From the NCBI GenBank assembly GCA_022729705.1, contig DZAX01000022.1, forward strand, positions 1 to 33,529: 33,529 bases of DNA, written 5' to 3'. Both the position numbers and the translations under genes were made by a program. The notes beneath the pieces were generated by a model. That model did no database searches and was not told the origin of the DNA. It saw nothing but the letters and a program-made list of their open reading frames with translations. Shown here one piece after another: positions 4,384-33,283 of this stretch (its first letter is position 1; every line of letters begins with the position of its first letter). Origin of the DNA: Helicobacter cetorum (GTDB taxonomy: Bacteria > Campylobacterota > Campylobacteria > Campylobacterales > UBA6016).

Positions 4384-4551
4384 CCGATCTTTTCTTGTAG
4401 TATTTTCAAAAATATCAACTCTTTAACTTATCCACTTTAATTGCGGTTGTGTATGAATTGATTAGGTGTCAAGTTTTACAGCGTTGCGCCATTCCCTTTA
4501 AAAGAGCTACATAAAACGCATCGGGTGAAATCTTGAATATTTCAGTCTCCT

Positions 4552-4822
4552 GAGCCCCTTGCAAATCTCCCCCTCAAATCATCCAAAAATCAGCTTAGAC
4601 TTCCAAGCTTGAGTTGACGATTGCATTTTAGGCGTCTTGTTTTGATTATTCTAACCAACAATGCTCTAAAAACCTACTTTTTCTCATTTTTTGAGCGTGC
4701 GAAATGGTTTGTTGTTTCAAAAAGACGCCCTTATCTTTTAAGTTAAGAGTTAGGTAGGCAGTTTAATGCTTTGATGAATGCGCAAAGCTAAAACACCAAA
4801 CGATAAATGACTAGCAACCTTG
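4552..4822. repeat. 271-bp direct repeat, copy 1 (truncated IS/MITE-like remnant)
   Basis: This segment is almost identical (about 4 transitions, no gaps) to 8270-8540 in the same orientation. It begins with GAGCCCCTTGCAAATC, which in the second copy is one half of a terminal inverted repeat. On the minus strand a short open frame reads KVASHLSFGVLALRIHQSIKLPT-stop with no start codon, reminiscent of a transposase end but not identified. Copy 1 diverges after 4822, so its other terminus is missing. The remaining noncoding DNA between 4384 and 4551 shows nothing recognisable. Confidence 0.8.
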
Positions 4823-8194: not shown

Positions 8195-8269
8195 GGCGTC
8201 CCGCCTTAAGTTAATTTTCAACACTTAAAGCATATATAGTTCCATTTATCATAGAAATTTTTAATTATT

Positions 8270-8626
8270 GAGCCCCTTGCAAATCTCCCCCTCAAATCAT
8301 CCAAAAATCAGCTTAGACTTCCAAGCTTGAGTTGACGATTGCATTTTAGGCGTCTTGTTTTGATTATTCTAACCAACAATGCTCTAAAAACCTACTTTTT
8401 CTCATTTTTTGAGCGTGCGAAATGGTTTGTTGTTTCAAAAAGACGCCCTTATCTTTTAAGTTAAGAGTTAGGTAAGCAGTTTAATGTTTTGATGAATACG
8501 CAAAGCTAAAACACCAAATGATAAATGACTAGCAACCTTGTCAGAAAACTCTAGCTTTAACGACTCTTTTTTAAACTCCCAAAAACCTTAAACTGGATGG
8601 TTTGTTTGGGGATTTGTAAGAGGCTC
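8270..8626. mobile_element. 357-bp MITE/IS-remnant with imperfect terminal inverted repeats (contains repeat copy 2)
   Basis: The left end is GAGCCCCTTGCAAATCTCCCC (8270-8290, imperfectly matched at the other end); the right end at 8608-8626 reads, on the minus strand, GAGCCTCTTACAAATCCCC. The two differ by two bases and a 2-nt gap, so they look like terminal inverted repeats. The first 271 bp are duplicated at 4552-4822. On the minus strand an open frame of about 38 codons runs from near 8576 to 8463 (FKKESLKLEFSDKVASHLSFGVLALRIHQNIKLLT) without a start codon, perhaps a piece of a transposase. No clear target duplication is visible. The family is not identified. The remaining 8627-8828 is noncoding and contains an eight-G run at 8812-8819. 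Confidence 0.6.
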
Positions 8627-14361: not shown

Positions 14362-14664
14362 CTACCCTTTCATAATCTGTAGATTATCAAGATCAAGAGA
14401 ACCCATTCTCTTATACATAAGTATCAAAAACCCGAGACCCACAGCGACTTCGCTAGCCGCTATAGCTATAATAAAAAACGCAAAAATTTGACCCGTTAAA
14501 TCTTGCATATAGTAGCTTATCGCCGCAAGAGCTATGTTTACAGAGTTGAGCATAATCTCTGTGGCAAAAAAAAGCATTAGTAGATTTTTTCTTCTAATTA
14601 CGCCAAATAAGCCTATCGCAAATAAAATTGCGGTTAAAATTAAGTATTGATTTAGCGTTATCAT
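14362..14664 (-). CDS. nuoK: NADH-quinone oxidoreductase subunit K
   Basis: 100 aa with three membrane helices: residues about 4-22, 29-50 and 59-83. The conserved glutamates of the proton path are visible in FFATEIMLNSVNIALAAISYY and AIAASEVAVGLGFLILMYKR. It overlaps nuoJ by 4 nt (ATGA), a sign of translational coupling, and is the usual length for NuoK. Confidence 0.96.
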   Translation of the reverse strand: MITLNQYLILTAILFAIGLFGVIRRKNLLMLFFATEIMLNSVNIALAAISYYMQDLTGQIFAFFIIAIAASEVAVGLGFLILMYKRMGSLDLDNLQIMKG

Positions 14665-15251
14665 TTATGCTCCTCCGCTGCGCCGTTAAGTTGAAACTCT
14701 TTAAACGTATCCATATTTGCGTTGTCGTCGTTGCTTGTCGTGGCGCTAACATCCATCTTTTTACCAGCCAAAATAATCCCGGCTATCATTGCGACAAGAA
14801 GCATGATAGAGGCTAGCTCAAACGGTATAAGATATTTTGTAAACAAAACTATTCCTATCGCTTGCGGATTTTGCATACCCTGAACGCTCTGCATAATCTC
14901 ATCAGGCTTTCCAAGCATAACCGGAGCGCTAACCATTATGACAAGTATTACCGCTGTAATCATTGAAAATAAAAAAACTTTTTTAGGGCTTTTGATGTTT
15001 TCATTCGCATCTTTGGCACTGTCAAAAAACATCATACCAAACGCATAAAGAGCCATAACAGCTCCGGCATACACGACTATCTGCACAACCCCCAAAAAGT
15101 CCGCATTTAGATTAAAAAAGAGACCCGCTATAAAAATCATCCCCGCCGCCAAAGAACTCATAGCATATAGTATGTTTTTAGTTGTTACCGTAATTAAAAA
15201 CATAGCCGCTGTGAGCGAGGCAAAAGTGTAAAAAGCTATTTGTTCAAACAT
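14661..15251 (-). CDS. nuoJ: NADH-quinone oxidoreductase subunit J
   Basis: 196 aa with about five membrane helices. The characteristic helix-3 pattern is FLGVVQIVVYAGAVMALYAFGMMFFD, including the conserved Tyr-Ala-Gly-Ala bulge. The polar C-terminal tail of about 25 residues (KKMDVSATTSNDDNANMDTFKEFQ) is longer than the minimum. It starts 11 nt after nuoI and overlaps nuoK. It lies in the membrane arm next to the quinone site and links redox chemistry to proton pumping. Confidence 0.95.
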   Translation of the reverse strand: MFEQIAFYTFASLTAAMFLITVTTKNILYAMSSLAAGMIFIAGLFFNLNADFLGVVQIVVYAGAVMALYAFGMMFFDSAKDANENIKSPKKVFLFSMITAVILVIMVSAPVMLGKPDEIMQSVQGMQNPQAIGIVLFTKYLIPFELASIMLLVAMIAGIILAGKKMDVSATTSNDDNANMDTFKEFQLNGAAEEHK

Positions 15252-15262
15252 CTGTATCCTTC

Positions 15263-15841
15263 TTAGTACGCTAGAGGCGTTTGTTTGATATTTTTGTCCG
15301 CATCTTGCGACAACGCTCCAAAACCTTCAAACTCTTTTTGTTTTCCAGCTTTTAAGAAGTCAATCGGAGTAAGCATATCGTCTTTTAAAACAAAGTGGGC
15401 TCTCTGCTCTCCGGCATTCTCATATCTAGATCCGTGAACTATTGCAAGCTCGGGACACACCTCGGCGCAATAACCGCAAAATATACATCTGCCAAGATTT
15501 ATTGTGTACTCGCCAATCGCTTTTCTGCCGTTTTCATCTTGAAAAGTATCCATTCTAATGCACTTAGATATACATATCTTTTCACAAAGTCCGCATCCAA
15601 TACATCTTTCATTACCGCTTTCAAGAAGTCTTAACAGTTCGTGAACGGCTCTATATCTAGGACCTATCGGCAACTTCTCTTTTGGATATTGAACAGTGTG
15701 AATATCAAACTTCACCATCTCTTTAAGCACTATCCAAAGACCTACAAAAAGCTCTACTCGCATAGTTCTTCTTACAAGCCTAGCAAATTTTGCTAACGGC
15801 TTGGTAGGGTATTTTTCTATTTCAATTATTTTGTATCCCAT
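15263..15841 (-). CDS. nuoI: NADH-quinone oxidoreductase subunit I (2 x 4Fe-4S)
   Basis: 192 aa. It carries two ferredoxin-type 4Fe-4S motifs: [20 protein letters not shown] (residues about 80-99) and [23 protein letters not shown] (about 118-140), the N6a/N6b clusters that pass electrons from NuoG to NuoB. An amphipathic N-terminal region ([27 protein letters not shown]) docks onto the membrane arm. The first motif has one extra spacing residue before its last cysteine compared with the classic CxxCxxCxxxCP. It sits between nuoH (9 nt) and nuoJ (11 nt). Confidence 0.95.
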
Positions 15842-15850
15842 AAAAGACCC

Positions 15851-16840
15851 TTAAATCAGTATAAAAATGCCGGTAGCTACGATATTTACAACCGCAAGCG
15901 GCATAAGCACTTTCCAGCAGAGCCACATCAGTTGATCCGGTCTAACGTGCGGCCAAGCGGCTCTCGCCCATAAAAACAAGAATATAAAAAACGCCGCTTT
16001 AAGAATAATAGCAATGCCGCCAGGTATAAACCACATTGGATTAAATCCGCCAAAAAATACGATTGCCGTCACAAACGCTATTGTAAACATATTGGCGTAC
16101 TCGCCTATAAAAAACATACCCCATCTCATACCAGAGTACTCGGTAGCGTAACCAGATACAACCTCCGACTCATGCTCCAAAAGGTCAAACGGCGTTCTAT
16201 TAGTCTCAGCGTAACCCGCTATCGTAAAGAGCACAAAAGCGACAGGTTGACACCAGATAAGCCAATCGCTCACACCGCCGGATTGATAGTTGTTTATGTC
16301 TATCAGCGACAATGAGCCTATCATCATCAGCGGTGCCAAAAGTGCAAAACCTGCGACAACTTCAAAACTAAGCATCTGAATAACGGTTCTAGCTCCGCCA
16401 AGCAAAGCCCACTTACTCCTAGACGACACACCCGCAAAAAGAGGTCCGTACATTCCGGTAGCCATCACCGACAAGACAAACAAAATGCCTATATTAAGGT
16501 CGGAGATAATAGGTCTAACGGTGTACCCAAAAAGCTCAAACTCAGGCAAAAACGGTATTGCCGCCATTGCTATAAAAGCGGTAGCCGCCGTAATTACGGG
16601 AGCTAGAATAAATATAGGCTTAATAGCGTTTTGAGGAATAATATCCTCTTTTGTAAACAACTTTATACCGTCAGCCGCTATTTGTAAAAGTCCATATGGT
16701 CCAACATGCGTAGGTCCAAGCCTTCTTTGCATAAACGCAAGAACTTTTCTCTCTATATATGTCGTAAAACCGCCAAGCGCTGAAAATACTAATACTACGG
16801 TGACTATTTTGACAAGCGTCTCAATTATAATTAATTCCAT
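15851..16840 (-). CDS. nuoH: NADH-quinone oxidoreductase subunit H
   Basis: 329 aa with about eight membrane helices. Conserved loops forming the quinone cavity are visible: ERKVLAFMQRRLGPTHVGPYGLLQIAADGIKLFTKEDIIP near residue 30-70, FAGVSSRSKWALLGGARTVIQMLSFEV, and AETNRTPFDLLEHESEVVSGYATEYSGMRWGMFFIGEY, which holds the charged E-channel residues. The C-terminal RAAWPHVRPDQLMWLCWKVLMPLAVVN is typical. It starts 2 nt after the second nuoG. Confidence 0.97.
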   Translation of the reverse strand: MELIIIETLVKIVTVVLVFSALGGFTTYIERKVLAFMQRRLGPTHVGPYGLLQIAADGIKLFTKEDIIPQNAIKPIFILAPVITAATAFIAMAAIPFLPEFELFGYTVRPIISDLNIGILFVLSVMATGMYGPLFAGVSSRSKWALLGGARTVIQMLSFEVVAGFALLAPLMMIGSLSLIDINNYQSGGVSDWLIWCQPVAFVLFTIAGYAETNRTPFDLLEHESEVVSGYATEYSGMRWGMFFIGEYANMFTIAFVTAIVFFGGFNPMWFIPGGIAIILKAAFFIFLFLWARAAWPHVRPDQLMWLCWKVLMPLAVVNIVATGIFILI

Positions 16841-16842
16841 CT

Positions 16843-19335
16843 CTACCCCTTGATTATCTCGGTGTGTTTAAACTTATAGCCGCCCCTTAAGCTTTCAAAG
16901 CAAGGATTACCGGACATATATCCCCCAGCCAAAAGCGCATTTGAGGAGAGCTTATCGTCTACTTTTACCTTATAGTTTGCGCTATGCCCAACCGTTTTGA
17001 GCGTGACGCTATCTCCGCACGCAAGAGAATAAGCCGTCGCCGCTGTTTTTGGAACATAAAGAGTATCGACCTCTTCTGCAATTTGGCTACACTTCGCCGT
17101 CCACCCATTAAACTGCCCCGTAGGAGCACTAACATAAACCAAAGTTCCGTTCATCTCTTCCAAATCAGCTATCTCTTCTAAGACTCCGTTAGTTTCCATA
17201 TCTTTGGTTTTTAAGATATATCCTCTATCTTCTGTTCCGTCATTTAAAAAACGGTTTGGCAAAGAGTCAAAAGATATATTTTTAAATCCTTTTTCTACTG
17301 GAAGCTCTTTTGTATACTCTATCGTGTACTCTTTTGTTATTCCAAGAGCTTTAGCTAAATCATTTAATTCATACCCTTTAAACTCTAAAGCGGCATTTAT
17401 TGGAACTACTCTTTTGTCTATGTTTACAAAAGTTCCCTCTTGCTGATTTAGAGCGGGCATATCAAGGGCGTTTTCTTTTGACTCAGAACCTAGCGAGGTA
17501 AGCATAAAATCTCCCTCTTCGTTGTAGCCTACCGTAAAGCCCTCAGCTTCTTCGTCTAAATCACATATTAGCGATACGCCTAAAGTGTTTGTTTGGGATG
17601 GAATAATCAACACTTTAAAATCTGACGCTTTTTCAAATATAGCGGCTAGACGCGCTATATTTTGGGCTCTTGGGTGGGCGTATAGGTCGGCGCCTAGGAT
17701 TAGGATCGGTTTTGCTTTTTTTAGAGTTACCATCTTCTCTCTATCCTCAAGAGCTAGTCCTATCTCGGTAAACAAGCTTGATGAGAGTGTCTCAACCTCT
17801 TTTGTAACTGTTTTTTCAACTTCTTTTGTGATAATTTTTTCTACTTCGCTTGTTGTTCCATCTTCGTTTGTAATAGTCTCTTTTATACTCTCTTGCACTT
17901 TTTCTTTTACTTTTTCACTAACCGTTTTTAGGTATGTTGTCTTAAGAGTTTCTAGCTTAGAGGCTATATCTTGCGGCAACTTTTGTGCGTCGCAATAAGC
18001 GTCTATAAGAGCTAGTATCGTCTTTTCTTCAAAAAGCGGTTTATAGTTTAGTTGTAGCATATTTTTTGACAACCCTGAAATTACAGAGTCATTTATAGGG
18101 TGCATATAAACCGCCGCGCCTTTATTCATTGTGACGGCGTTATTTACCGCAAATCGCAAAACCGGATTGTCTGTTTTTATCATAGACCCAAGCGTGATGA
18201 CAAACGAGCTGTTATGCACATCTTTTGAGTCCGCCGAATACAAACTTTTGCCGCTAACGCTCGCGTAAGCGTCCATAAACTTTTTAAACTCGCTTGCGTC
18301 TTTGTTTATTAGTTTTACGCCTATTTTCTCTTTTATTGTTTGAAGAATTTTTGCTTCTTCGTTTGTTATAAATGAGTTAAATTTTATACTTTGAGCTGAT
18401 TTTAAAGCTTTAACAGCTTTACCAAATGCTGTTTCATCTTTTTTGGCTCTGTTTTCGTAGTCATAGCCAAAGCGTCCGGCTGCGCACAAACTTTGAAAAT
18501 TCCACTCATTTCTTACTCTATATATACGCTCCTCGGCGTTGTCTATCGAGGCGTGTTTTACTTCGTAGTATAGATGGCATGCAGACGAGCAGTGAGTACA
18601 CGATGATGGTACCTGGGTAAGCTCCCATGAATTTGACTTATAGGTAAAATCAGAGCTTGTGAGAGCCCCGACAGGACAAACGGCAATACACTCGCCGCAC
18701 ATCGTACAATCCAAAACATCAGGATTACCACTTTTGGTTCCGATGATATTTTTTTGCATTCTTGTCCAAATAGTAAACGCATTTTTAGGAGTCGTCTCTT
18801 TAAACGCTTTGTCTATCTCCGCTCCGCCTCTAGGAGTAGTCCCAAGAGCGGCGTCGCCCACCATGTCTTTGCACACCGTAACACATCTTTCGCACACTAT
18901 ACACAAAGAGGCGTCATATTTTATAGTATTCCATTTTCTTACAGGTCGCACACAATCTGGCACGCTATAAGCTTGATGTCCCACACCCATCTCTAGCGTA
19001 TAGTTTTGCAGTTCGCACTCTCCCGATTTATCACACACGCCGCACTCCAGCGGATGGTTTATGTCGTATACCTGCATGATAGCTTGTCGCTCAGATTTCA
19101 CCTCTTCTGAGTTTGTAACTATCTGCATACCCTCTTTTGGTTTTGCATTGCAGGCAAAAACCTGCTTTCCGTCCGCTTCGACAAGACAGATTCTGCACGC
19201 CAAGGTCGGGGAACATCTGCTTAAATAGCAAATCGCTGGTATAAAAATACCGTTTGCTCTAGCGATATTCAGTACAGTATCAGAGTCATTCCCTTCTAAA
19301 GGAGTTCCGTCAATAAAAAAATTTACTTTTGCCAT
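16843..19335 (-). CDS. nuoG: NADH-quinone oxidoreductase subunit G, second copy (NuoG2)
   Basis: 830 aa. The N-terminus has the 2Fe-2S motif (CYLSRCSPTLACRICLVEAD), the His-Cys segment HPLECGVCDKSGECELQN, and two 4Fe-4S motifs (CIVCERCVTVC and CTMCGECIAVCPVGAL). A molybdopterin-oxidoreductase-like domain follows, with its own cluster motif CTHCSSACHLYYE, then SLCAAGRFGYDYENR. No molybdenum is expected in NuoG. Residues about 469-518 carry a charged insertion with repeats (EVEKIITKEVEKTVTKEVE) absent from NuoG1. Residues 546-745 are nearly identical, also at DNA level, to NuoG1. It starts 2 nt after the first copy. Tandem nuoG genes are known in some Campylobacterota; which copy does what cannot be told here. 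Confidence 0.93.
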   Translation of the reverse strand: MAKVNFFIDGTPLEGNDSDTVLNIARANGIFIPAICYLSRCSPTLACRICLVEADGKQVFACNAKPKEGMQIVTNSEEVKSERQAIMQVYDINHPLECGVCDKSGECELQNYTLEMGVGHQAYSVPDCVRPVRKWNTIKYDASLCIVCERCVTVCKDMVGDAALGTTPRGGAEIDKAFKETTPKNAFTIWTRMQKNIIGTKSGNPDVLDCTMCGECIAVCPVGALTSSDFTYKSNSWELTQVPSSCTHCSSACHLYYEVKHASIDNAEERIYRVRNEWNFQSLCAAGRFGYDYENRAKKDETAFGKAVKALKSAQSIKFNSFITNEEAKILQTIKEKIGVKLINKDASEFKKFMDAYASVSGKSLYSADSKDVHNSSFVITLGSMIKTDNPVLRFAVNNAVTMNKGAAVYMHPINDSVISGLSKNMLQLNYKPLFEEKTILALIDAYCDAQKLPQDIASKLETLKTTYLKTVSEKVKEKVQESIKETITNEDGTTSEVEKIITKEVEKTVTKEVETLSSSLFTEIGLALEDREKMVTLKKAKPILILGADLYAHPRAQNIARLAAIFEKASDFKVLIIPSQTNTLGVSLICDLDEEAEGFTVGYNEEGDFMLTSLGSESKENALDMPALNQQEGTFVNIDKRVVPINAALEFKGYELNDLAKALGITKEYTIEYTKELPVEKGFKNISFDSLPNRFLNDGTEDRGYILKTKDMETNGVLEEIADLEEMNGTLVYVSAPTGQFNGWTAKCSQIAEEVDTLYVPKTAATAYSLACGDSVTLKTVGHSANYKVKVDDKLSSNALLAGGYMSGNPCFESLRGGYKFKHTEIIKG
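17099..17700. repeat. 602-bp near-identical tract, copy in nuoG2
   Basis: Matches 19582-20183 at a constant offset of 2483 with about 3 mismatches and no gap. Both borders are abrupt: sequences outside differ strongly. The tract keeps the reading frame in both genes. A shorter, less perfect match (about 18233-18412 with 20560-20739) lies in the same gene pair. Confidence 0.92.
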
Positions 19336-19337
19336 TC

Positions 19338-21593
19338 TTAATTATTACCTTGCGCGGTTATTTTTGCTCTTTTAAACTTGTATCCAGAAGCTTGAAAATC
19401 TAACTTAGAAACTATAGCGCCAGTTCCTTTTAAATCTTCACAAAATTTAAATTCCCCAAATATGCCATACCCCTCAGAGCTAATGGAAATTTTTTCAGAG
19501 TCCGCTATTTTAGCCGCTTGCATGAATGCTTTTGAGCCTAAAATTTGCCCATTTTGATATTTTAGATTATTACTTTTTTTTGTCCACCCATTAAACTGCC
19601 CCGTAGGAGTGCTAACATAAACCAAAGTTCCGTTCATCTCTTCCAAATCAGCTATCTCTTCTAAGACTCCGTTAGTTTCCATATCTTTGGTTTTTAAGAT
19701 ATATCCTCTATCTTCTGTTCCGTCATTTAAAAAACGGTTTGGCAAAGAGTCAAAAGATATATTTTTAAATCCTTTTTCTACTGGAAGCTCTTTTGTATAC
19801 TCTATCGTGTACTCTTTTGTTATTCCAAGAGCTTTAGCTAAATCATTTAATTCATACCCTTTAAACTCTAAAGCGGCATTTATTGGAACTACTCTTTTGT
19901 CTATGTTTACAAAAGTTCCCTCTTGCTGATTTAGAGCGGGCATATCAAGGGCGTTTTCTTTTGACTCAGAACCTAGCGAGGTAAGCATAAAATCTCCCTC
20001 TTCGTTGTAGCCTACCGTAAAGCCCTCAGCTTCTTCGTCTAAATCACATATTAGCGATACGCCTAAAGTGTTTGTTTGGGATGGAATAATCAACACTTTA
20101 AAATCTGACGCTTTTTCAAATATAGCGGCTAGACGCGCTATGTTTTGGGCTCTTGGGTGGGCGTATAGGTCGGCGCCTAGGATCAGGACTCTATTTTTTG
20201 TTTTTGCAAAAAGCTTCTTTATATCCGCCTGCTCCGCCTCGTCAAAACTAGACTCAGAACTCACATACCCCATATCCAAAGCCTCAAAAAACTCCTCTTC
20301 GCCTACATCCAAACGACTTCTATCTATAAAAATAGACGCTAAAAGAGCTATTACACCCTCTTCGCTTTTTGGTTCATATTTGACAAACTTATTAATATTT
20401 GGCGTCAATAGATAGTCTTCTATCGGATGAAGATAAATAACTTTTGCGTTTTTCTTTTTTGAAGCTTCGTTTAGCGCATATCTTGCCATCGGATTATCAT
20501 AACTTATCCTAGAGCCAAGTGCAATAATACCCTCGGCGTTCTTTACGTCCGCAAGTGTCGCCGAATATAGACTTTTGCCGCTAACGCTCGCATAAGCGTC
20601 CATAAACTTTTTAAACTCGCTTGCGTCTTTATTGACTAGTTTTACGCCTATTTTCTCTTTTATTGTTTGAAGAATTTTTGCCTCTTCGTTTGTTATAAAC
20701 GAGTTGAATTTTATACTTTGAGCTGATTTTAATGCTCCTAGGGCTTTACTAAAGGCTACTTCATCTTTTTTTGCTCTGTTTTCGTAGTCAAAGCCAAAGC
20801 GTCCAGCCTTACACAAAGAGCTAAACTCAAAATCGTTTGTCACTCTGTATATTTTTGACTCCACATCTGTGGTTGCCGTGTGTTTTGACTCGTATGTAAG
20901 ATGGCAAGCAGAAGAGCAGTGTGCGCAAGCGGAGGGCGTTTTGCGAAGCTCCCAAGCGTTTGCGCTATACTTAAAATCACGGCTTATAAGTGCACCGACA
21001 GGGCAAACGGCGATACACTCTCCACAAAATGTACAATCAAGCGTATCTGAATTTTTTGGAACGATAACAGATTTGTATCCGCCAACGCTTATTTCTATCG
21101 CATCATCGCCAATAATCTCGTTGCAAGTGTGAACACATTTTTCGCAAAGTACGCAAAGGCTTGGGTCATACTGAATAAAACCCCAATCTTTTATCACCCG
21201 TTTTTGTTCTTTTGCCATAAAATTTTGAGTCGCAACACCAAATTCCAACGCCTTATTTTGCAAATCACATTCGCCTGATTTATCGCATACGCCGCATTCT
21301 AACGGGTGATTTACGCAGTAAAGTTGTATGATTTTTTGACGCTCTTTTTCTAGCTTATCAGAGTTTGTTTTGATGGTAAGTCCGTCTATAACTTTTGTTT
21401 GACACGCAAGTATTAGACCCTCTTGATTCTCAGCCTCGACCACGCAAAGCCTACAAGACGCTATTGGCTCGCATTTTGGCAGATAACAGAGAGTCGGTAT
21501 ATATACGCCCGCCTTTCTAGCGGCTTGCAGTATTGTGTCGTTTTTTTTGGCGCTTATCTCAACGCCGTTTAAACTTATTTTCACTTCACTCAC
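19338..21593 (-). CDS. nuoG: NADH-quinone oxidoreductase subunit G, first copy (NuoG1)
   Basis: 751 aa. It has the same iron-sulfur layout as NuoG2: 2Fe-2S ligands in CYLPKCEPIASCRLCVVEAE, the N5-type segment HPLECGVCDKSGECDLQN, 4Fe-4S ligands in CVLCEKCVHTC and CTFCGECIAVCPVGAL, then CAHCSSACHLTYE with SLCKAGRFGFDYENR. The molybdopterin-like domain continues to the C-terminus. The long KEVE-repeat insertion of NuoG2 is missing; in its place is a shorter acidic segment (SYVSSESSFDEAEQADIKKLF region). Residues about 471-670 match NuoG2 almost perfectly. It starts 1 nt after the flavoprotein gene, so the pair is coexpressed in the operon. Electrons would pass from the NuoF-like module through this subunit to NuoI. 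Confidence 0.94.
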   Translation of the reverse strand: MSEVKISLNGVEISAKKNDTILQAARKAGVYIPTLCYLPKCEPIASCRLCVVEAENQEGLILACQTKVIDGLTIKTNSDKLEKERQKIIQLYCVNHPLECGVCDKSGECDLQNKALEFGVATQNFMAKEQKRVIKDWGFIQYDPSLCVLCEKCVHTCNEIIGDDAIEISVGGYKSVIVPKNSDTLDCTFCGECIAVCPVGALISRDFKYSANAWELRKTPSACAHCSSACHLTYESKHTATTDVESKIYRVTNDFEFSSLCKAGRFGFDYENRAKKDEVAFSKALGALKSAQSIKFNSFITNEEAKILQTIKEKIGVKLVNKDASEFKKFMDAYASVSGKSLYSATLADVKNAEGIIALGSRISYDNPMARYALNEASKKKNAKVIYLHPIEDYLLTPNINKFVKYEPKSEEGVIALLASIFIDRSRLDVGEEEFFEALDMGYVSSESSFDEAEQADIKKLFAKTKNRVLILGADLYAHPRAQNIARLAAIFEKASDFKVLIIPSQTNTLGVSLICDLDEEAEGFTVGYNEEGDFMLTSLGSESKENALDMPALNQQEGTFVNIDKRVVPINAALEFKGYELNDLAKALGITKEYTIEYTKELPVEKGFKNISFDSLPNRFLNDGTEDRGYILKTKDMETNGVLEEIADLEEMNGTLVYVSTPTGQFNGWTKKSNNLKYQNGQILGSKAFMQAAKIADSEKISISSEGYGIFGEFKFCEDLKGTGAIVSKLDFQASGYKFKRAKITAQGNN
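19582..20183. repeat. 602-bp near-identical tract, copy in nuoG1
   Basis: Partner of 17099-17700. Visible differences are a two-base change that makes Thr in place of Ala near one end, and one silent A/G change near the other. Such identity confined to the middle of otherwise diverged paralogues points to recent gene conversion. Confidence 0.92.
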
Positions 21594-21594
21594 C

Positions 21595-23592
21595 TTAGAC
21601 CGCCGCCATAGCGATATAGTAACATCTCATACAACGATTTGCCTCATCTATCGCCTGTTCGGCGCTAAACCCAAAGTTTACTTCCAAATTATTTGTTTTT
21701 CTCATCTCAACGCCCATTTTTTCACTCTCTTCTCTATGAAGCCCTTTTAGCCATCCCTTAACAACCTCTTTTTTGTCATATACTTTGAGAGCTTTTAGAT
21801 GGTCTTCCATTATTTCATCGTCGCTTCTGTATACCTTGCCCTCAAAGATATATCTCGTCATGACGCTCGCCGCTCTTTTGGCTTGACCTACCGCATTTAC
21901 GATAGTCATCGGTCCATACTCGCAATCGCCTGCGGCAAAAATCTTCTCTCTTGAAGTTTGATACGTCTTACCATCGGTTAGTATCGTATTCCAGCTTGTT
22001 TTTGCTATCTCCCATTCAGGCGGCAAAAGAGATAAATCAGCGTCTTGGCTAACAGCTGGCACCAAAACATCACACTCTAGCTCAAAGCTCTTACCCTCCG
22101 CCTTGAGAAGCTGTGGTCTGCCTCCGTCGGGATCTGGAACCAACTCATACATATCCACAATAAGCTTTTTAATTTTTCCATCTTCAGCAATTATCTCGTC
22201 AATAGCGCTATAAAACACAAACTCAACACCCTCTTCGACAGCTTCATGATACTCTTCGTATGAGGTGTTGTTGATAATAGTACGTTCGTCTCTTCGATAA
22301 AGCATCACAACTTTTTTTGCGTTAGCCCTCACAGAACACCTAACAACGTCCATAGATGTAAAGCCCCCGCCGACGCATACCACGGTTTTGTCTGTTAAGT
22401 CTACTCTCTCGCCCATATCGTATTTTTCGTATAGATTTATCTCATCCAAAAACGGTATAGCAGGCCAATACCCCTCGTCTTTTGGGTTTTCGTTTTTGGC
22501 TCTTATCTTTTTGGAGAGTCTGGCTCCGGTCGCCACGATAACAGCGTCGTAGTTTGCCTCAAACTCTCTCATCATATCGGCGTTTACTTTGGTGTTGACT
22601 ATAAAGTTTGCCCCAACGCTTTTTACAAGCTCTATATCTTTATTGTATTTGCCGATTGGCATTCTGTATTCCGGTACGCCTACCGCCACCTCGCCGCCAA
22701 GCACGGGAAGCTCTTCGTATACGTCGCAATTTACACCCTCTACACATAGATAATACGCCGCTGTAAGTCCGGCGGGTCCCGCTCCGATAACGGCGACCTT
22801 TTTATCTGTTTTTGGTTTTGGCTCTACCGGATGAAACCAACCCATATCCCTATCGCTTTCAAAATCAGCGCCAACTCTTTTTAACTCCATAATCGCTATA
22901 GGCTCGTCAAGATTTGTTCGTCTACAAGCGTTTTCACACGGGTGAGGACACACTCTGCCGCACGTATGTGCAAGAGGCATGGTTTGACGTGTGGCTCTAA
23001 GGCTCTCATCAAATCTAAGATCCCTTACGCCCTCAATATATGCGGGTATATCAACATGCGATGGACATGCGTCCATACAGGGAGCTGTTATTTTGGCTAT
23101 ATAAGAAACATCGTTTTTGTGAAAATCGGGCGATGTTTTTTGCTCCGCAATCAAAGAGATAAAATCCTCTTCAAAATAAGCAAGAAGCATCAAAATCGGA
23201 TTTGGCACACTCTTGCCTATTTCACATTTTGAAGTCTCTTTCATGGAGCCGCAAATCTCTTTTAGGTGTTCTATATCGCTTGTTTTTCCCTCACCTCTGG
23301 CAATTTTGTGCAAAACGTCATAAATTATTCTGCCGCCCCATCTGCCGGGCGCACATCTACCGCACGCCTCTGAATACTCTTGATAAGTTTTTGCATACTC
23401 CAAAGCAAGCTTTACAACGTCGACGCCATGACCGAATATAGCGACTCCCGCCCAGCCGATAAAAGCTTTTGTGTGGGAATTTGCGTCGTATTCAAATGGA
23501 AAATGAAACTTGCTTTTTGTCGCCTCATCTTCACTTTTGCCGCGATTGTCGATAATTTCGCCTTGCCAAAGGCTAAAAAGGATGTTTGCCAT
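21595..23592 (-). CDS. NuoF-replacing flavoprotein: NuoF-like Fe-S end fused to GltD-like FAD/NAD(P) oxidoreductase
   Basis: 665 aa in the nuoF position. Residues about 80-130 contain EACGRCAPGRWGGR, echoing the NuoF 4Fe-4S motif (SCGxCxPCR) but with Gly where the third cysteine would be. From about 170 it follows glutamate-synthase small subunits: CPSHVDIPAYIEGVRDLRFDESL, HTCGRVCPHPCENACRR, an FAD-binding GAGPAGLTAAYYL (residues about 265-280), a second dinucleotide fold (VVCVGGGFTSMDVVR) and FAAGDCEYGP. The C-terminus ends EANRCMRCYY. No FMN/NADH pocket of true NuoF is recognisable. It likely feeds electrons into NuoG from NAD(P)H or another carrier through FAD. Equivalent genes are known in nuo clusters of Sulfurimonas-like bacteria; the donor is not established here. 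Confidence 0.85.
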   Translation of the reverse strand: MANILFSLWQGEIIDNRGKSEDEATKSKFHFPFEYDANSHTKAFIGWAGVAIFGHGVDVVKLALEYAKTYQEYSEACGRCAPGRWGGRIIYDVLHKIARGEGKTSDIEHLKEICGSMKETSKCEIGKSVPNPILMLLAYFEEDFISLIAEQKTSPDFHKNDVSYIAKITAPCMDACPSHVDIPAYIEGVRDLRFDESLRATRQTMPLAHTCGRVCPHPCENACRRTNLDEPIAIMELKRVGADFESDRDMGWFHPVEPKPKTDKKVAVIGAGPAGLTAAYYLCVEGVNCDVYEELPVLGGEVAVGVPEYRMPIGKYNKDIELVKSVGANFIVNTKVNADMMREFEANYDAVIVATGARLSKKIRAKNENPKDEGYWPAIPFLDEINLYEKYDMGERVDLTDKTVVCVGGGFTSMDVVRCSVRANAKKVVMLYRRDERTIINNTSYEEYHEAVEEGVEFVFYSAIDEIIAEDGKIKKLIVDMYELVPDPDGGRPQLLKAEGKSFELECDVLVPAVSQDADLSLLPPEWEIAKTSWNTILTDGKTYQTSREKIFAAGDCEYGPMTIVNAVGQAKRAASVMTRYIFEGKVYRSDDEIMEDHLKALKVYDKKEVVKGWLKGLHREESEKMGVEMRKTNNLEVNFGFSAEQAIDEANRCMRCYYIAMAAV

Positions 23593-23593: not shown

Positions 23594-23818
23594 TTACTTC
23601 TTTACCACTATAGTCCAGTCAACTTCATTAAACTTTAGGCTATTCATAAGCGTCCAGCCACTATTCTTTACCAAGTCCGCACTTTTTTGCACAGGACTAA
23701 AATCTCCAACTTCAAACAAAAAAATCGCAACTTCGTCTTTTGCAATCTCTTTATTCATAAGTTCGTTCATCCGCCCATAAAAATCGCTTTTTAAGTGTCT
23801 TAAATCAAACCTTTTCAT
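23594..23818 (-). CDS. Small NuoE-position protein of Campylobacterota complex I
   Basis: 74 aa: [20 protein letters not shown] to DWTIVVKK. It occupies the nuoE position but has no cysteine at all, so it cannot carry the 2Fe-2S cluster of classical NuoE and lacks the thioredoxin-like fold length (about 160 aa). Campylobacter and Helicobacter carry comparable small genes in the same place (Cj1575/HP1264 type). It overlaps the nuoD stop by 1 nt and is 1 nt from the flavoprotein gene, so it is probably a structural partner of that module. The role is inferred from position only. Confidence 0.8.
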   Translation of the reverse strand: MKRFDLRHLKSDFYGRMNELMNKEIAKDEVAIFLFEVGDFSPVQKSADLVKNSGWTLMNSLKFNEVDWTIVVKK

Positions 23819-25044
23819 TATCTATCCACCTCGCCAAATACAGTGTTGGAGTTTCCTATCATTGCTACAACGTCGGCTAACTGCACGCCTGGAAGCCACG
23901 CTTGAAGTATTCCTGTATGCCAAAAGCTCGGAGCTCTGATTTTAAGACGGTATGGATACGGCTCGCCGTTTGAGTAGATGTAGTATCCAAGTTCTCCTTT
24001 TGGAGATTCCGTAGCCGCATAAACTTCGCCTACAGGCGGTCTCATGCCTTGCGTTACAAGCACAAAGTGCTGCATAAGCGAGTAGTTTTGAGTCATTATC
24101 TGCTCTTTTGGAGCCGATACATAGTTTGGCGCCTCAGCCATAATTTTTGGCTCGGTGTCATGATAAAGTTTTAGACATTGGTCAATTATCTTTACAGACT
24201 CTCTCATCTCAAGCATATAGCACTTATATCTGCCATAACTGTCGTTTGTCTGCGCAATCGGCACATCAAAATCAAGCTCGTCGTAAAGCTCGTACGGCTC
24301 CTCTTTTCTAATATCCCACTTGATGCCGCTGCCTCTTAGCATAATCCCTGAGCAACCCCAATCAAGAGCCATTTCAGGAGATAAAATACCAACGTCTTCA
24401 AGCCTCATTCTCCAAATTCTATTTGAATCAAGAAGCCCCTCATATATTTGGATATTCTCTTCAAGCGAGTCGATATATTTTTTCATACCAGCAAGCCAAG
24501 CCGGCGTAACGTCAAGAGGCACACCGCCTATTCTGATAGATGAGTGCGTAAGTCTAGCCCCACAATACTCCTCTATCAAGTCCATAGCATGCTCTCTTTC
24601 TCTAAAAGCGTACAAAAACACGCTCATGGCGCCAATGTCAAGCGCATGTGTAGCGACAAAAAACAGGTGTGAACAGAGACGATTAATCTCAAGCAGCATT
24701 GTTCTAATAACTTTTGCGCGTCTAGGGACTTCCAGGCCAACAAGTCTCTCAACCGCAAGCGCAAAACCGTAGTTATTGGAGCTTGCCGCAATATAATCCA
24801 TTCTGTCCGTAGTCGGCAAAAACTCGTTGTATATCATATTTTCAGCCATCTTCTCCATACCTCTATGAAGAAAACCGATGTTTGGATACGCTTTTGCCAC
24901 TTGCTCGCCGTCAAGCTCCAATATAAGATTTAGTAGTCCGTGAGCCGATGGGTGATTTGGACCAAAGTTGATCACCATTCGGTTGTCTTCTCTATCAAAT
25001 GTAATGTTTTCAAAAAAGGGCTGTAGTTTATTTGGTTGTTGCAT
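23818..25044 (-). CDS. nuoD: NADH-quinone oxidoreductase subunit D
   Basis: 408 aa, standard length. It is the 49-kDa-type subunit that forms the quinone site with NuoB. Signature segments: [23 protein letters not shown] (the quinone-site His), [45 protein letters not shown], and the C-terminal [36 protein letters not shown] is conserved too. It starts 14 nt after nuoC. It is not fused to NuoC, as is usual in this phylum. Confidence 0.97.
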
Positions 25045-25058
25045 CTTCTTTTGCCCTC

Positions 25059-25856
25059 CTATCTTTCTCTATCCGCAAGCGTTGTTTTGCTCGGGTCAAA
25101 TTTCTCTATCAGAGGCGGTTTGCTCTCTTCTTGATACGCTATCGGCGTCTCGCTCTCTTTGTACTCTTCGCCAAAACCAACCTCTTTGCCAAGACGTGCA
25201 AATCTAGTCGTATCGTATCTGTCTACATAAGCCGCATCTCTAAGTTCAGGACCTATTATCTCTCTAGCTTCTTTGCCATAGATTTTGTCCACTTCATACC
25301 ATGATGAAAACTCATCACCCTGAAGCGGATATGTTTTGCGTAGCGGATGTCCTACCCAGTCATCAGGAAGCATAATTCTTTTTAACATTGGGTGATTGTT
25401 TACTTTTATGCCAAACATATCATACATCTCTCTCTCCGACCAGTTTGCAGAGGAGTAGACGCTTGATACGCTTTCGATATTTTCGCCGTCTTTGACAAAG
25501 CATTTTACTCTCGCTCTTTTGCGTTTGCTCATTGAAAGCAGTTGATAAAATATCTCAAACCCGCCGCAATCAGCCACAAAATCTATAGCGCTCATCTCGC
25601 TAAGTTGGCAATAATCAAGCTTTTCTTTAAAAAATTTAATCACGTCAACATTTTTTGCCGCGTCTACGATAACTACCAGTTGCCCTCTTTGAATATAGGC
25701 TTCCTTGACTTCAAACGCCGCCTTTAAACTCTCTACGTCTTTTGCAAAAACTTCATCAGTCTCAACAGGCTCTTTAGGAAGTCTATCAGGAGTCCTAAAT
25801 CTATCCGTATAGTATGATTGTTTTTGAACATTCTCTTTTGGACTATATTTTCTCAT
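25059..25856 (-). CDS. nuoC: NADH-quinone oxidoreductase subunit C
   Basis: 265 aa. The 30-kDa signature is present: [45 protein letters not shown]. The first 35 residues ([30 protein letters not shown]) and the last 45 or so are extensions rich in charged residues beyond the core, common in Campylobacterota. It has no cofactor and scaffolds NuoD and NuoI. The start codon directly follows the nuoB stop. Confidence 0.95.
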
Positions 25857-26366
25857 CTACACAAACCTTTTTTGGATTTGCGCGCGCGAGGCTTTATTTT
25901 TTCTGATGTGTTGTTGCAATATCATAACGGCGTATTGGAGAGTCTCAGGCCTGGGAGCGCATCCTGGAAGATAGATGTCAACAGGGATAATTCTATCTAC
26001 GCCCTGAACGGTGCTATATGTATTAAACATACCGCCGGTATTAGCGCAAGAACCCATAGAAATAACCCATCTAGGCTCAGCCATTTGATCGTATAGTCTT
26101 TTTATAAAAGGGGCGTATTTTTTGGTGACCGTGCCGGATACCACCATAACGTCCGATTGCCTTGGAGAGGCTCTAAAGATAGTGCCAAACCTGTCAAAGT
26201 CGTATCTTCCCGCTCCAGCCGCCATCATTTCGATAGCGCAACACGCAAGACCAAACGTAAACGCCCAAAGGCTGTTTGAACGTCCCCAATTTACAAGCTT
26301 GTCAACCGTCGTAAGGGCGATCGGAAGACCACCTGAAGCTGCGTAGTTTACTTTATGTTGTGCCAT
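25857..26366 (-). CDS. nuoB: NADH-quinone oxidoreductase subunit B (cluster N2)
   Basis: 169 aa from the ATG at 26366, chosen because AAGGAGCG lies 5-12 nt upstream. An ATG at 26387 would add 7 residues and lacks a comparable site. The four ligands of cluster N2 are visible: the tandem cysteines of [11 protein letters not shown], the cysteine of [10 protein letters not shown], and the cysteine of [10 protein letters not shown]. It transfers electrons to quinone with NuoD. Overlaps the end of nuoA by 19 nt. Confidence 0.95.
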
Positions 26367-26737
26367 TGAAGCGCTCCTTTTTTCCATGCGTATACAAAAC
26401 CGATAGTAAGAAGAGTAAGAAATATACCCATCTCAACCATACCAAACCATCCGAGGAGTTTAAAGTCAAGCGCCCACGGAAACATAAATATAATCTCTAT
26501 ATCAAATAGAATAAACAGAAGTCCGAATAGGTAAAACTGAGCCGAAATCTTGTTTGGCTGTAGAGTCGTCTCGGGTCCGCACTCATATATTGAAAGCTTT
26601 AGTTTTTCAGTATCTTTTTTCGCTATTAAGCGACCAACAAATCTTGAAAGATTAGTAGTCGCAAAAAAAGCGACAAAAGTAAAAACCATCAGCACAAAAG
26701 CGCCGAAATACGGATGCGCAAAATCCGAATGAGTCAT
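26348..26737 (-). CDS. nuoA: NADH-quinone oxidoreductase subunit A
   Basis: 129 aa with three membrane helices. The conserved loop between helices 1 and 2 reads [43 protein letters not shown], with the Glu-Cys-Gly of the quinone-side loop and the Asp-Ile-Glu pattern in helix 2. It is the first gene of the operon. The promoter should lie in 26738-27024, an A+T-rich stretch with an inverted repeat GTATATT-N6-AATATAC (26917-26936); no convincing -35/-10 pair can be fixed by eye. Confidence 0.95.
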
Positions 26738-27024: not shown

Positions 27025-28785
27025 TTAAGATAAAAACCCCATTGACTTCTCGTTGTCAAAACTTCCGCTAAGCTCTTTTTTGATTTCGCTTACAAAATCT
27101 TCCATTGTTAATATTGGTTTCTCTTTTGCCGCGGCGTTGAAAGCCGAATTTTTAATCACCAAAGCGATTTGTCCGCCCGTAAGATTGTAATTTGCAAGCT
27201 CCTCGGCGCTAAATCCGTCTGAATATGGAGCATTTTTAGGCAAACTTTTTTCCCAAATAGAGATTCTTTGTTTTAAATCCGGCTTTTCAAACTTTATCTT
27301 GTAGTTAAAACGTCTTGAAAAAGCCTGATCTAAATTTTCAAGTAGGTTTGTTGTGGCTATTATAACCCCATCAAAACGCTCTATCTGTTCTAAGAAAATA
27401 TTTTGCATTTGATTGTGCATCTTGTCGGCGCTTGAAAAAGCTGACGAACTTCGAGAGGATAGGAATTGGTCAGCTTCGTTTAGAAGTAGCACCGGATCTG
27501 TTTTTGATTTGCTTCTTAGCTCTTTGTATGTGTCAAATATCTTGCGAACGTTTTTTTCACTCTCTCCAATATACATAGAAAGTATCTTGCTGCAATCAAA
27601 ACTTAGCACCTGTTTTTTAAGTGATTTTGAGAGACTAAGAGCCGTCATCGTCTTGCCTGTCCCCGGAGGTCCGTGAAAAATAATTCTAGCTTCTACGCCT
27701 GTTTTTTTATCTTTGATGCCCCAGTCTTTGAGTAAATTTGAAACGTTTTTATCAAGTTGACGCAATACCGTATCCAGCATCTCTCTTGTTTTTGGATTTA
27801 ATACCACGTCATCAAGCGAACTTTTTGGCTCTAGCAGCTCAAAAAGTTCTTGCTCTTTCATCAAAGACTCTAATTTTACTTTGATTTTTTTCTTCTTTTT
27901 TTGCGGATAGACAATATGCTTTAGTATCTCCTCTGAAATATAAAACGAGCGGCTAATCCCGCCAAATGGCGTTAGCACCTCTTCATAATCGATAATCTCC
28001 TGCTCAATCAATTTTGCGCCGTCTTCAAGCAAACTTCTATTTTTGATTCTCTCATAATCATCAGAGCTTACAATATCTATTAGTATATTCATCTCTCTAA
28101 GATTGTCGCCCTCGCCGGAGTACTCCTCTTTTAGTAGAGCCAAAAAGATAATTTTCTCTTTATCGCCAAGATGCTTTTCTTTAAAAAAATGCTCTAGTTC
28201 TAAGTGTATTTTTGTCTGTTTGATTTTTTCGCCTATTCTAGTTTCAAGCTCGCTAAGCTTTGTCTTTAGCCGTGAGATATTTGGCGAGTCGCTAGAAAAA
28301 CTATGCCTAATAGCCGCAATTTTTTTGTACAAATCTATACGATAAAACTGCTCTTGCAGATACTCAAGGTGGTCGGTATAAGGTTTAATATCCGGCAAGC
28401 TAAACTCAAAACTCCCCTCCTCCAAAAGTTTCAAAAAAGAGGAGCTAAGGGAGATAGAAGAGCTGAGAAGCTCCAAAAGCGAAGTGTCTGATATTTTTTG
28501 CAAACCAAAGTTGTCGTTGTTTGTTATCCACCCTAGCTCTATCAGGGTTTTGACAATTATCAGTTTTTCTATATGTTTATAGTTTTTCGCCGTAAACAAC
28601 TCTATCAGCAAATCGGAGCATACAACACTCTCTTGACCCTTTAAAAACTTCTGAGTCATATTTTTCAAAAATAGCGTCGATTCCGCATCACACTTTAGTT
28701 GCGAATGCACAAAAGTTTTTTCTATATTCTGGTTTTCAATAAAATCTACAAGATATTTCAAATATAAAGTCCTAATTCCAATCAT
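27025..28785 (-). CDS. AAA+ ATPase of unknown role
   Basis: 586 aa. The C-terminal AAA module has Walker A IIFHGPPGTGKTMTALSLSKSL (residues about 375-395), Walker B LLLNEADQFLSSR (the first Asp of the usual LLxDEAD is Asn, the catalytic Glu is kept), sensor-1 IIATTN and the arginine finger region LDQAFSRRFNYKIKF. The N-terminal 330 residues are helical and charged, with no recognised domain. No membrane segment. ATG 28785 has no clear Shine-Dalgarno; a TTG at 28761 with AGGA 8 nt upstream is a credible alternative. It is divergent from rsmE. It resembles housekeeping proteins of the FtsH/spastin-type ATPase fold, but the substrate is unknown. There is no sign it belongs to the CRISPR locus. 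Confidence 0.85.
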   Translation of the reverse strand: MIGIRTLYLKYLVDFIENQNIEKTFVHSQLKCDAESTLFLKNMTQKFLKGQESVVCSDLLIELFTAKNYKHIEKLIIVKTLIELGWITNNDNFGLQKISDTSLLELLSSSISLSSSFLKLLEEGSFEFSLPDIKPYTDHLEYLQEQFYRIDLYKKIAAIRHSFSSDSPNISRLKTKLSELETRIGEKIKQTKIHLELEHFFKEKHLGDKEKIIFLALLKEEYSGEGDNLREMNILIDIVSSDDYERIKNRSLLEDGAKLIEQEIIDYEEVLTPFGGISRSFYISEEILKHIVYPQKKKKKIKVKLESLMKEQELFELLEPKSSLDDVVLNPKTREMLDTVLRQLDKNVSNLLKDWGIKDKKTGVEARIIFHGPPGTGKTMTALSLSKSLKKQVLSFDCSKILSMYIGESEKNVRKIFDTYKELRSKSKTDPVLLLNEADQFLSSRSSSAFSSADKMHNQMQNIFLEQIERFDGVIIATTNLLENLDQAFSRRFNYKIKFEKPDLKQRISIWEKSLPKNAPYSDGFSAEELANYNLTGGQIALVIKNSAFNAAAKEKPILTMEDFVSEIKKELSGSFDNEKSMGFLS

Positions 28786-29560: not shown

Positions 29561-32500
29561 ATGCTTTTAAAATTCACAAACCGTTACCCGCTTTCAAAAA
29601 CACTCCGATTTGAATTAAAGCCGATAGGTAAGACTAAAGATTATATTGAGCAAAAAGGGCTTTTGAGTCAAGACGAAGAGCGAGCGGAAGATTACAAAAG
29701 GGTCAAAAAAATTATTGACGAATACCATAAAGATTTTATACACAAGTCTTTATCGGGTGTTAGGCTTGAGGCTTTGGATGAATTTGAAAAGATGTATTTG
29801 TTGCCGTCAAAAGACGATAAGGTGCAAAAAGAGTTTGAAAAACTACAAGAGTCTTTGCGCAAGCAAATAGTATCGGCTTTTAGGGCGCATCCAACTTTTA
29901 AAAATCTTTTCGCAAAAGAGCTAATCAAAGACGAACTTGCCTCTTTTGTGACCGACGAGTCGGACAAGACGCTAATAGAAAAATTCAAAAATTTTACGAC
30001 TTATTTTACGGGTTTTCACAAAAATAGAGCCAATATGTACACACACGAGCCAAAACATTCAGCCGTCGTCTATCGCATCGTACACGAAAATTTACCGATA
30101 TTTTTGTCTAACAAAAAAGCTTTTGAGGGTGTAAGGCGAGACTACCCAGAACTTTTGGAGCAGGCACAATCATCGCTGCTTAAGCATTTAGAGGGCGGCA
30201 TTGTCGAAGATATGTTTTCGCTCGAATACCTCTCTTTTGCGCTATCCCAAAAATACATAGATTTGTACAACACCATGCTAGGCGGCAAAACGCTAGAAGA
30301 CGGCACGAAGGTGCAGGGGTTTAACGAAAAAATAAACCTCCATAGGCAAGCAAACGGCATCGATAAAAGAAAACTTCCAAATTTTAAAGCTCTAAACAAA
30401 CAAATTCTAAGCGACCGTGAATCGCTCTCGTGGCTACCCGAGGCTTTCAAAACCAAAGAGGAGCGAACGGAGGCGGTCGGGGTATTTTATGTTGAACATA
30501 TTACAACGTTCCAATGCTGTGACGGCGTTGTTGATTTGCTGGAGCGTATCCCTGAGCTATTTACGCTAAAAAATATATATGAACCGTCAAAGATTTTTGT
30601 CAAAAACGACCTATCTCTTACCGCCATATCTCAAAGCCTATGTAATGACTATCGTACAATCCGTGAAGCTCTATGGCAAAAACACTTGTCGCAAAATCCA
30701 AAAGCCCAAAAATCAAAAGACCTTGCAGGCGATGAGGAGAGATTTTTCAACCGCAAAAATTCGTTTTTTTCCGTTGCCCAAATAGAGGCGGCGCTAAGTG
30801 AATACGCAAGCGAAAAATCTATGTTTGATTATTTTTACAAAGGCGCAGAGCAAGCGGCAAGCGAAATCAAAAACACATATGCTTCATGGGTAAATAATTC
30901 AAGCGACACAAAAACTACAAAAGAACTACTAGATGCGATTTTGTCGATGCAAAGACACCTCAAACCTCTATATGTCAAGACCGATACTGACAAAGATATT
31001 GCTTTTTATGCAATGTTCGACACATATTTTGAGAGTCTAAACGGTATATCAAAACTATACGACAAAGTCCGAAATTTTGAGACCAAAAAGCCGTACTCTC
31101 TCGAAAAATTTAAGCTCAATTTTGAAAATAGCACCCTGCTTGACGGTTGGGATGTAAACAAAGAGCCCGACAATACGGCTATATTATTTCTCAAAGACGG
31201 ACTGTATTATCTGGGTATTATGGACAAAAAACACAATCGTGCACTCAAAAATATTCAGCCGACGACAAAAGAGGGCGGATATAAAAAAGTAGAATACAAG
31301 CTTTTACCAGGGGCAAATAAAATGCTTCCAAAGGTATTTTTTTCCAATTCTCGTATAAATGAGTTTGCACCGAGTACTCAACTGCTAGAAAATTATAAAA
31401 ATGATACGCACAAAAAAGGCGACAAGTTTAGCCTAGCCGACTGCCACACTCTAATTGATTTTTTCAAGGCTTCAATACAAAAGCATGAAGATTGGAAACA
31501 TTTTGGATTTAATTTCTCCCCAACCTCATCATACGAAGACCTTAGCGGATTTTATCGAGAAGTTGAACAGCAAGGCTACAAAATCACATACAAAAATATT
31601 GATGCTGACTATATCGACACCTTGGTTGCAGAAGGCAAACTCTATCTATTTCAAATCTACAACAAAGACTTCTCGCCGTATAGCAATGGTACGCCAAATA
31701 TGCATACGCTGTATTGGAGAGCGCTTTTTGACGAGCGAAATCTCGCCGATGTGGTCTACAAGCTCAACGGTCAAGCGGAGATTTTTTACCGCAAAAAATC
31801 GCTTGACTATTCGGAGGAGAAGCTAAAAGTAGGCCATCATCCAGAGCTAAAGAGTTTTGCCTATCCTATCATCAAAGACCGCCGTTTTGCATTTGATAAA
31901 TTCCAGTTTCATGTACCAATTACTCTCAATTTCAAGGCTACGGGCGGCGACAATATCAATGCGTATGTCAATGGATTTATAGCAAACAACACCGACAATA
32001 TAAAAATCATAGGCATAGACAGGGGTGAGCGCCATCTGCTATATGTCTCGCTAATCGACACAAAAGGTCGCATAGTAGAGCAATACTCGCTAAATCAAAT
32101 CATCAACAGCTACAACGGCAAAGAGCATGTCATCGACTATCGCGACAAGCTCGCCAAAAAAGAGGATGAACGGGCAAAAGCTAGGGTAGAGTGGGGTAGC
32201 GTCGAAAATATCAAAGAGCTAAAAGAGGGATATATGAGCCATGTAATCCACCGTATAGCTACGCTCATGGTGGAACACAACGCTATCGTCGTCCTCGAAG
32301 ACCTTAACTTTGGTTTCAAAAGAGGGCGTTTTAAGGTCGAAAAACAGGTGTACCAAAAGTTTGAAAAAATGCTCATAGATAAGCTAAATTATCTAGTGGA
32401 TAAGCAAAAATCGCCCAGTGAAATCGGCGGCGCACTAAATGCGCTTCAGCTAACAAACAAATTTGAGAGCTTTGAGAAGATGGGCAAACAAAGCGGCTTT

Positions 32501-33145: not shown

Positions 33146-33283
33146 CCATTCAGCACCCCCTTCTGAAAGCTCAATTTTTGAGATAAAATCCTCAAAAAAG
33201 TCGATATTTTTTCTTTTTTCTTATTGAAATAGCCACTTTTCCATGCTAATTTTCATTTTTTTACAGGGGTGCTGAATGGTTAC
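33142..33283. mobile_element. 142-bp IS66-type MITE inserted in the 3' end of cas12a
   Basis: Ends are perfect 18-bp inverted repeats: GTAACCATTCAGCACCCC at 33142-33159 and its reverse complement at 33266-33283. They are flanked by an exact 8-bp direct repeat. The interior (106 bp) is A+T-rich and has no meaningful ORF. GTAA termini with 8-bp duplications are the signature of IS66-family elements, so this is probably a non-autonomous derivative mobilised by an IS66 transposase elsewhere. A hairpin TTTTTGAG-N8-CTCAAAAA (33175-33198) followed by T-rich sequence could act as a weak terminator. No second copy is visible in the window. Confidence 0.9.
33224..33252 (+). promoter_or_regulatory. Possible outward promoter inside the MITE
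   Basis: TTGAAA (33224-33229), 17 nt, then TAATTT (33247-33252), preceded by TGC. The -35 matches five of six consensus bases, the -10 about three. It points toward cas4 and could restore its transcription after the insertion. Weak, by eye only. Confidence 0.25.

Follow-up and report, generated by a model that had tools for sequence, protein, structure and literature searches.

The nuo operon on contig DZAX01000022.1 of a Helicobacter cetorum assembly (GCA_022729705.1) contains two neighbouring nuoG genes that are nearly identical over some 600 nucleotides and clearly diverged on both sides. The question is what keeps one internal segment alike in two genes that otherwise differ. The window, by which we mean the whole stretch of DNA analysed (33,529 nt), harbours the operon on its minus strand in the order nuoA, nuoB, nuoC, nuoD, a NuoF/GltD-like fusion, nuoG2, nuoG1, nuoH, a nuoI-like gene and nuoJ (Table 1).

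Table 1. Features of the nuo operon and of the homogenised tracts in the window. All positions are those of the window.
Feature	Positions	Strand	Remarks
nuoJ	14661-15251	-	PF00499
nuoI-like ferredoxin protein	15263-15841	-	Fer4 families
nuoH	15851-16840	-	PF00146
nuoG1 (G1, 830 aa), adjoins nuoH	16843-19335	-	NF006305 NuoG, 1077.5 bits; AlphaFold mean pLDDT 78.7
Main conversion tract in nuoG1, codons ~546-745	17099-17700	-	3/602 differences to the other copy; sister pair in tract trees
Predicted long beta-hairpin, G1 residues 465-519	17779-17943	-	Secondary structure of two models; gap in G1/G2 alignment
Second, weaker tract in nuoG1	18232-18477	-	246 nt at 91.5%
nuoG2 (G2, 751 aa), adjoins NuoF/GltD-like gene	19338-21593	-	NF006305 NuoG, 887.3 bits; AlphaFold mean pLDDT 80.6
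Main conversion tract in nuoG2, codons ~471-670	19582-20183	-	3/602 differences to the other copy; sister pair in tract trees
Second, weaker tract in nuoG2, codons 264-345	20559-20804	-	246 nt at 91.5%
NuoF-type Fe-S domain fused to GltD-like flavoprotein, upstream of nuoG2	21595-23592	-	PF10589, PF14691, PF07992
nuoD, nuoC, nuoB, nuoA	23818-26737	-	NCBIfam matches

Both genes scored above the curated NuoG cut-off of NF006305 (PRK08493; 591 bits), and with the general model TIGR01973 G1 and G2 scored 197.4 and 247.8 bits, both below its cut-off of 470.05. N-terminal cysteines, which we take to be ligands of Fe-S clusters, were invariant in both NuoG alignments of 41 sequences. For the C-terminal MopB fold, the predicted structure of G1 matched 8j83_A (Z 27.0, rmsd 3.6, 715 residues aligned) and 4hea_3 (Z 23.1, rmsd 4.3, 638 aligned); the G2 model matched 8j83_A with Z 22.5 and rmsd 4.8 over 707 aligned residues. 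Both proteins are thus predicted to adopt the molybdopterin-oxidoreductase fold known from formate dehydrogenase and NuoG. By their operon context both copies would be built into complex I, and NuoG1 and NuoG2 are likely to be functionally distinct subunits.

Several features outside the operon were also recorded. A Cas12a gene is located at 29561-33145 on the plus strand (1194 aa; PADLOC Cas12a, 1533.9 bits), past nuoA and separated from it by rsmE and an AAA ATPase gene; the window ends 384 bases after the Cas12a gene. The window was searched for what we take to be the Cas12a-type repeat pattern, without a match. A perfect 18-nt inverted repeat (33142-33159 and 33266-33283, 106 nt between the arms), the first arm of which overlaps the Cas12a stop codon, may be a mobile-element end or a terminator. 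The AAA ATPase with a winged-helix domain (27025-28785, minus strand) is like the IetA/IteA anti-phage ATPases, and its score of 101.8 bits is far below the curated NCBIfam cut-off of 510. An intergenic direct repeat of 272 nt (99% identical) occupies 4551-4822 and 8269-8540 and has partial copies (93-98%) at two places on contig C35; it looks like a dispersed intergenic element.

The two copies of the main tract, for which a sequence-only reading of the window had given about three differences, differ at exactly three of 602 sites (17127, 17128 and 17659). The flanks are clearly diverged, as that reading had also held: identity in 20-nt windows was 0.9-1.0 within the tract and 0.2-0.55 just outside it, with one straddling window per tract end at 0.70-0.75. 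The reading frame is common to both genes and the encoded segments differ by one amino acid, in agreement with the claim that the frame is kept and some 200 residues are alike. Two matches of the segment were found in the whole assembly (75 contigs, 2.19 Mb), both in this nuoG pair. The second, weaker tract is also present and lies 5′ of the main tract in G1 and in G2, but the size of about 180 bp first given to it was too small; it measures 246 nt, or 294 nt at 86% identity with laxer edges. In its region, 73% of the fourfold degenerate sites of the window pair were identical, against 34-43% in three flanks.

A total of 121 loci from other genomes and the window were examined, 101 of which had two nuoG reading frames. 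Thirteen pairs in which one gene was shorter than 700 codons were excluded, leaving 88 pairs (87 distinct, since L018 and L194 are one sequence). One nuoG only was present in 3 of 80 named loci, and in family f11 each of four genomes had a single nuoG locus. The tract stood out in 13 of the 88 pairs, with a nucleotide identity of at least 77.9%; the next pair had 67.7%. These 13 genomes belong to four families: the window (f1), L185-L191, L007, L014 and L005 (f18), L197 (f10) and L192 (f2). The remaining 75 pairs keep both nuoG genes without the tract.

A collapsed assembly or a consensus error could have put the sequence of one copy at both places, as a 600-nt exact repeat disturbs short-read assembly. 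Such disturbance was evident. Among 22 genomes of f18 searched, both genes were whole in 10, broken at contig ends in 9, replaced by a single chimera in 1 (G186) and without a match in 2; the corresponding search of 9 genomes of f10 gave one whole pair, five broken, one chimera (G076), one distant hit only and one without any, and of three f1 genomes the window had its pair whole and two were broken. In f1, f10, f18 and the unplaced MAG G005, 21 of 21 nuoG contig ends fell inside tract or second-tract windows against an expected fraction of 0.42, a count of hand-listed, non-independent ends in windows (G2 residues 246-345 and 464-680) that were set after looking, with one position (305) converted by eye. 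Three ends left out of this count also fall in these windows: one of two ends at residue 625, a position shared by G035 and G050 and entered only once, the end of contig C99 in G244 (G1 704) and that in G153 (G1 314). As a weak control, 3 of 9 cut-short G1 loci outside f18 ended inside the tract as judged by G1 length, where about 24% was expected; these loci were not a random choice (L013, L026, L039, L040, L043, L049, L064, L068 and L082). In G035, G017 and G063 a contig breaks off at G2 residue 510-511, some 126 nt inside the tract, which would be expected from a k-mer of 127.

Collapse is nevertheless contradicted by assemblies in few contigs. Exact repeats of the same segment were present in the f18 genomes G025 (619 nt), G082 (631 nt), G042 (618 nt) and G069 (622 nt) and, with one extra adjoining exact block, in G108 (533 nt, +68) and G056 (486 nt, +130); all six are assemblies of one or two contigs. 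In G095, another f18 tract genome in one contig (1,807,889 bases), the tract copies were 97.2% identical. Moreover, the copies differ at a few sites in the window and at many in L014, L191 and L192. The concern raised from the sequence, that the repeat might be an assembly artefact, is thereby answered: these assemblies of one or two contigs and the differences between copies speak strongly against it, and we leave it a very slight probability.

The chimeras in G186 and G076, which could themselves be collapses, deserve separate mention. In each, a single nuoG that begins as G2 and ends as G1-type immediately precedes nuoH (loci L017, at the same place as G186, and L213 of G076). A search for a second nuoG front gave none in G186, where all three matches were on the contig of the chimera, and none in G076 besides a distant Fe-S protein (32-33% identity). 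They may be collapsed short-read assemblies or the product of a crossover between the two tracts, which, unlike conversion, would remove about 2.5 kb and join G2 to G1 in one gene.

Strong purifying selection on a common function could also keep the segment alike, with no recombination involved, and the encoded segment is indeed identical except for one residue. The silent sites were compared within and between genomes. Fourfold identity between G1 and G2 in the tract was 98-100% in nine of the 13 tract genomes (the window, L185-L190, L007 and L197) and 95%, 88%, 82% and 53% in L191, L014, L192 and L005, respectively. The three flanks of these genomes (N-terminal, middle, C-terminal) had 8-62%, plus one value of 0 (11 sites). 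Between genomes, fourfold identity in the tract was 28-83% (12 orthologue pairs, both copies). Because silent sites are homogenised within and not between genomes, constraint cannot explain the sameness of the tract. The amino-acid identity of the tract between genomes was about that of the N-terminal part, being lower in most comparisons and slightly higher in a few, so no unusual constraint is apparent. Purifying selection alone is ruled out by the silent sites and can be given next to no credence. The same comparison does not bear out the suggestion that conversion holds a shared docking surface constant: the segment changes between species at rates similar to the flanks, and is equal between the two genes but not constant over time. 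L005, with the lowest fourfold identity in the tract, has largely escaped conversion. In L192 (G009), recent conversion was limited to 363 nt of the tract (99.7%), the remainder being older and diverged.

The phylogenetic trees of the tract and of the flanks differed. In the DNA tract tree, the two genes of each genome were sisters in 13 of 13 pairs (nine starred for support; L188, L189, L007 and L005 unstarred), whereas the flanks of the same 26 genes were split by copy, 13 against 13, at 100/100. Protein trees of 60 rows, made from 30 of the 88 pairs hand-picked for their spread over families, gave the same picture: 11 of the 13 pairs were resolved in the tract (L189 and L005 were drawn open) and the flanks were split 30 against 30 by copy at 100. 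A by-copy clade forced on the 13 converted tracts was rejected (p-AU 4.24e-60). The comparison of paralogue trees proposed from the sequence alone thus showed that orthologues of the segment do not cluster by copy. With tract pairs as sisters and flanks split by copy, the best tree needs 13 separate conversion episodes, nine of which are well supported. Sister pairs in the tract are equally expected if the gene or segment was recently and repeatedly re-duplicated in each lineage, but the flanks form two old and fully supported clades, and the order G2 then G1 was kept without exception in the 88 pairs. If re-duplication each time inserted that one internal segment, with unchanged edges, into a gene already present, it would be gene conversion under another name. 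The flank trees rule out re-duplication, which we regard as hardly credible.

That tandem nuoG paralogues undergo repeated gene conversion, as proposed, is thus strongly supported by pairing by genome in the tract and by copy in the flanks, and the pattern is very probably concerted evolution, limited to a segment, by recurrent conversion between old duplicates. On this explanation, nuoG2 and nuoG1 go back to an old tandem duplication within the nuo operon of the Campylobacterales. Non-reciprocal homologous recombination between the copies, which lie about 2.5 kb apart, presumably RecA-dependent, has repeatedly overwritten a piece of about 200 codons in the C-terminal MopB part, and in many genomes also a piece of about 80 codons before the main tract. 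Since the duplication, divergence has affected the Fe-S domains, the stretch that separates the two pieces, and the C-terminal end. Conversion would be tolerated or favoured where it occurs because the segment does the same job in both subunits, and would be removed or blocked elsewhere.

The edges of the tract were similar across families. The left edge was at G2 residue 464-473, that is within 10 codons, in 12 of the 13 genomes (L005 at 479), and the right edge at 668-679 in 11, with L192 and L005 stopping at 588 and 591. In the models, the tract starts near the first strand of the alpha/beta region and ends before the C-terminal strands. Shortly 5′ of the tract start lies the hairpin of G1, not predicted in G2 and with a pLDDT near 50-60 in part. 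We infer that this insertion, found in G1 only, may be a heterology barrier holding the left edge, and that the diverged flanks would limit both edges.

Between the two converted pieces lie about 125 codons in G2 and 178 codons in G1, and this intervening part is not homogenised. By hhalign, the G2 alignment matched E. coli FdhF with a probability of 94.8 over 491 columns; the G1 alignment matched over 52 columns only. On the G2 mapping, the second piece corresponds to FdhF ~45-157, the diverged middle to ~160-290 and the main tract to ~294 to ~590, with the diverged end beyond. The domain limits of FdhF we take to be ~61-135 and 336-447 for domain II, 136-335 for domain III and 541-715 for domain IV. 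The converted pieces would then, tentatively, cover much of the split domain II and adjacent portions of other domains, with the diverged middle in domain III. However, the tract start near FdhF 294 is about 40 residues before that III/II border, inside domain III, which weakens the split-domain reading.

Traces of an older history were sought in genomes without the repeat. For the distance test, 16 unconverted genomes, mostly Sulfurimonas-like, and 6 converted ones were hand-picked for family spread. In the unconverted genomes, the median ratio of the paralogue distance to the between-family orthologue distance was 1.94, 2.51 and 1.78 for the three flanks (N-terminal, middle and C-terminal, respectively), but 0.99 for the tract and 1.03 for the second piece. 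Saturation alone does not explain the ratio of 0.99, since the between-family orthologue distances of the middle (1.06) and C-terminal part (1.51) bracket that of the tract (1.26). The paralogue was nearer than the mean cross-copy distance for the tract in 16 of 16 unconverted genomes (mean difference -0.27); the same was true of the N-terminal part in 11 (-0.05), the second piece in 10, the C-terminal part in 9 and the middle in 6. A by-copy split of the tract was not rejected for 17 genomes of unconverted families (p-AU 0.371), and for this reason we hold with only moderate confidence that conversion was ancestral, continued until about the split of the families and was then lost family by family.

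Whether the sameness has been selected, as a matched docking surface or for paired NuoGs in one complex, or merely tolerated is a nearly even choice. Conversion may be real and bring no benefit, as a neutral recombination ratchet that runs wherever the homology is long enough, the flanks having dropped out as they acquired different functions; this is a question within the gene-conversion explanation and compatible with it. In line with such a ratchet, the rates at which the segment changes between species are ordinary, both genes have been kept without a tract in 75 of the 88 pairs, and the left edge lies close to an insertion in G1 that would be a mechanical obstacle to conversion. The persistence of the tract in four families, where its edges are almost unchanged, and the presence of two separate converted pieces with a diverged part between them point the other way, and to us the ratchet has an even chance of being correct. 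A more specific version of selection would have conversion follow a folded unit, the split domain II of MopB, with NuoG1 and NuoG2 as a pseudo-symmetric pair in one complex I that meet or bind the same partner there, conversion having kept their faces alike from a time before the order's families diverged. This version we consider rather unlikely.

The archaeal genes mtrA-1 and mtrA-2 of Methanococcales and Methanomicrobiales appear to be the closest precedent. According to PMC4632066, they are, like the nuoG pair, paralogues that share an operon for an energy-converting, ion-pumping complex, and one domain has long been homogenised whereas a second domain of that gene has diverged. The nuoG pair likewise has one part homogenised and other parts of operon paralogues diverged, over a clade. 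In mtrA the diverged part was, in the same text, replaced through domain shuffling and a fusion to a different subunit, whereas the remainder of the nuoG genes appears to have diverged mainly by substitution, besides the insertion in G1, and homogenisation affects two separate pieces. A survey of recurrent concerted evolution in prokaryotes lists 26 genes including the complex I subunit nuoL of Aquificales, with homogenisation within genomes that is, as in nuoG, long-lasting and found in many species (PMC6053082). Most of its cases are described as alike over nearly the full gene length, mtrA being limited to a domain, and nuoG is absent from its Tables 1 and 2. For complex I of Campylobacter jejuni, PMC4178425 describes a nuo operon with replaced NADH input subunits, NuoE and NuoF; in the operon of the window, a fused NuoF/GltD-like gene precedes the nuoG pair. 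The available portion of PMC5401914 has nothing on nuo, and among the matches listed for open-access text no title dealt with nuoG gene conversion or paired nuoG in Campylobacterota.

For genomics of these families, the tract means that short-read genomes tend to break, and perhaps collapse, at nuoG. For the biology, the nuoG pair offers a clean natural experiment in the partitioning of a protein by recombination and selection, with escaped lineages for comparison, and it raises the question of an unusual complex I with two NuoG genes.
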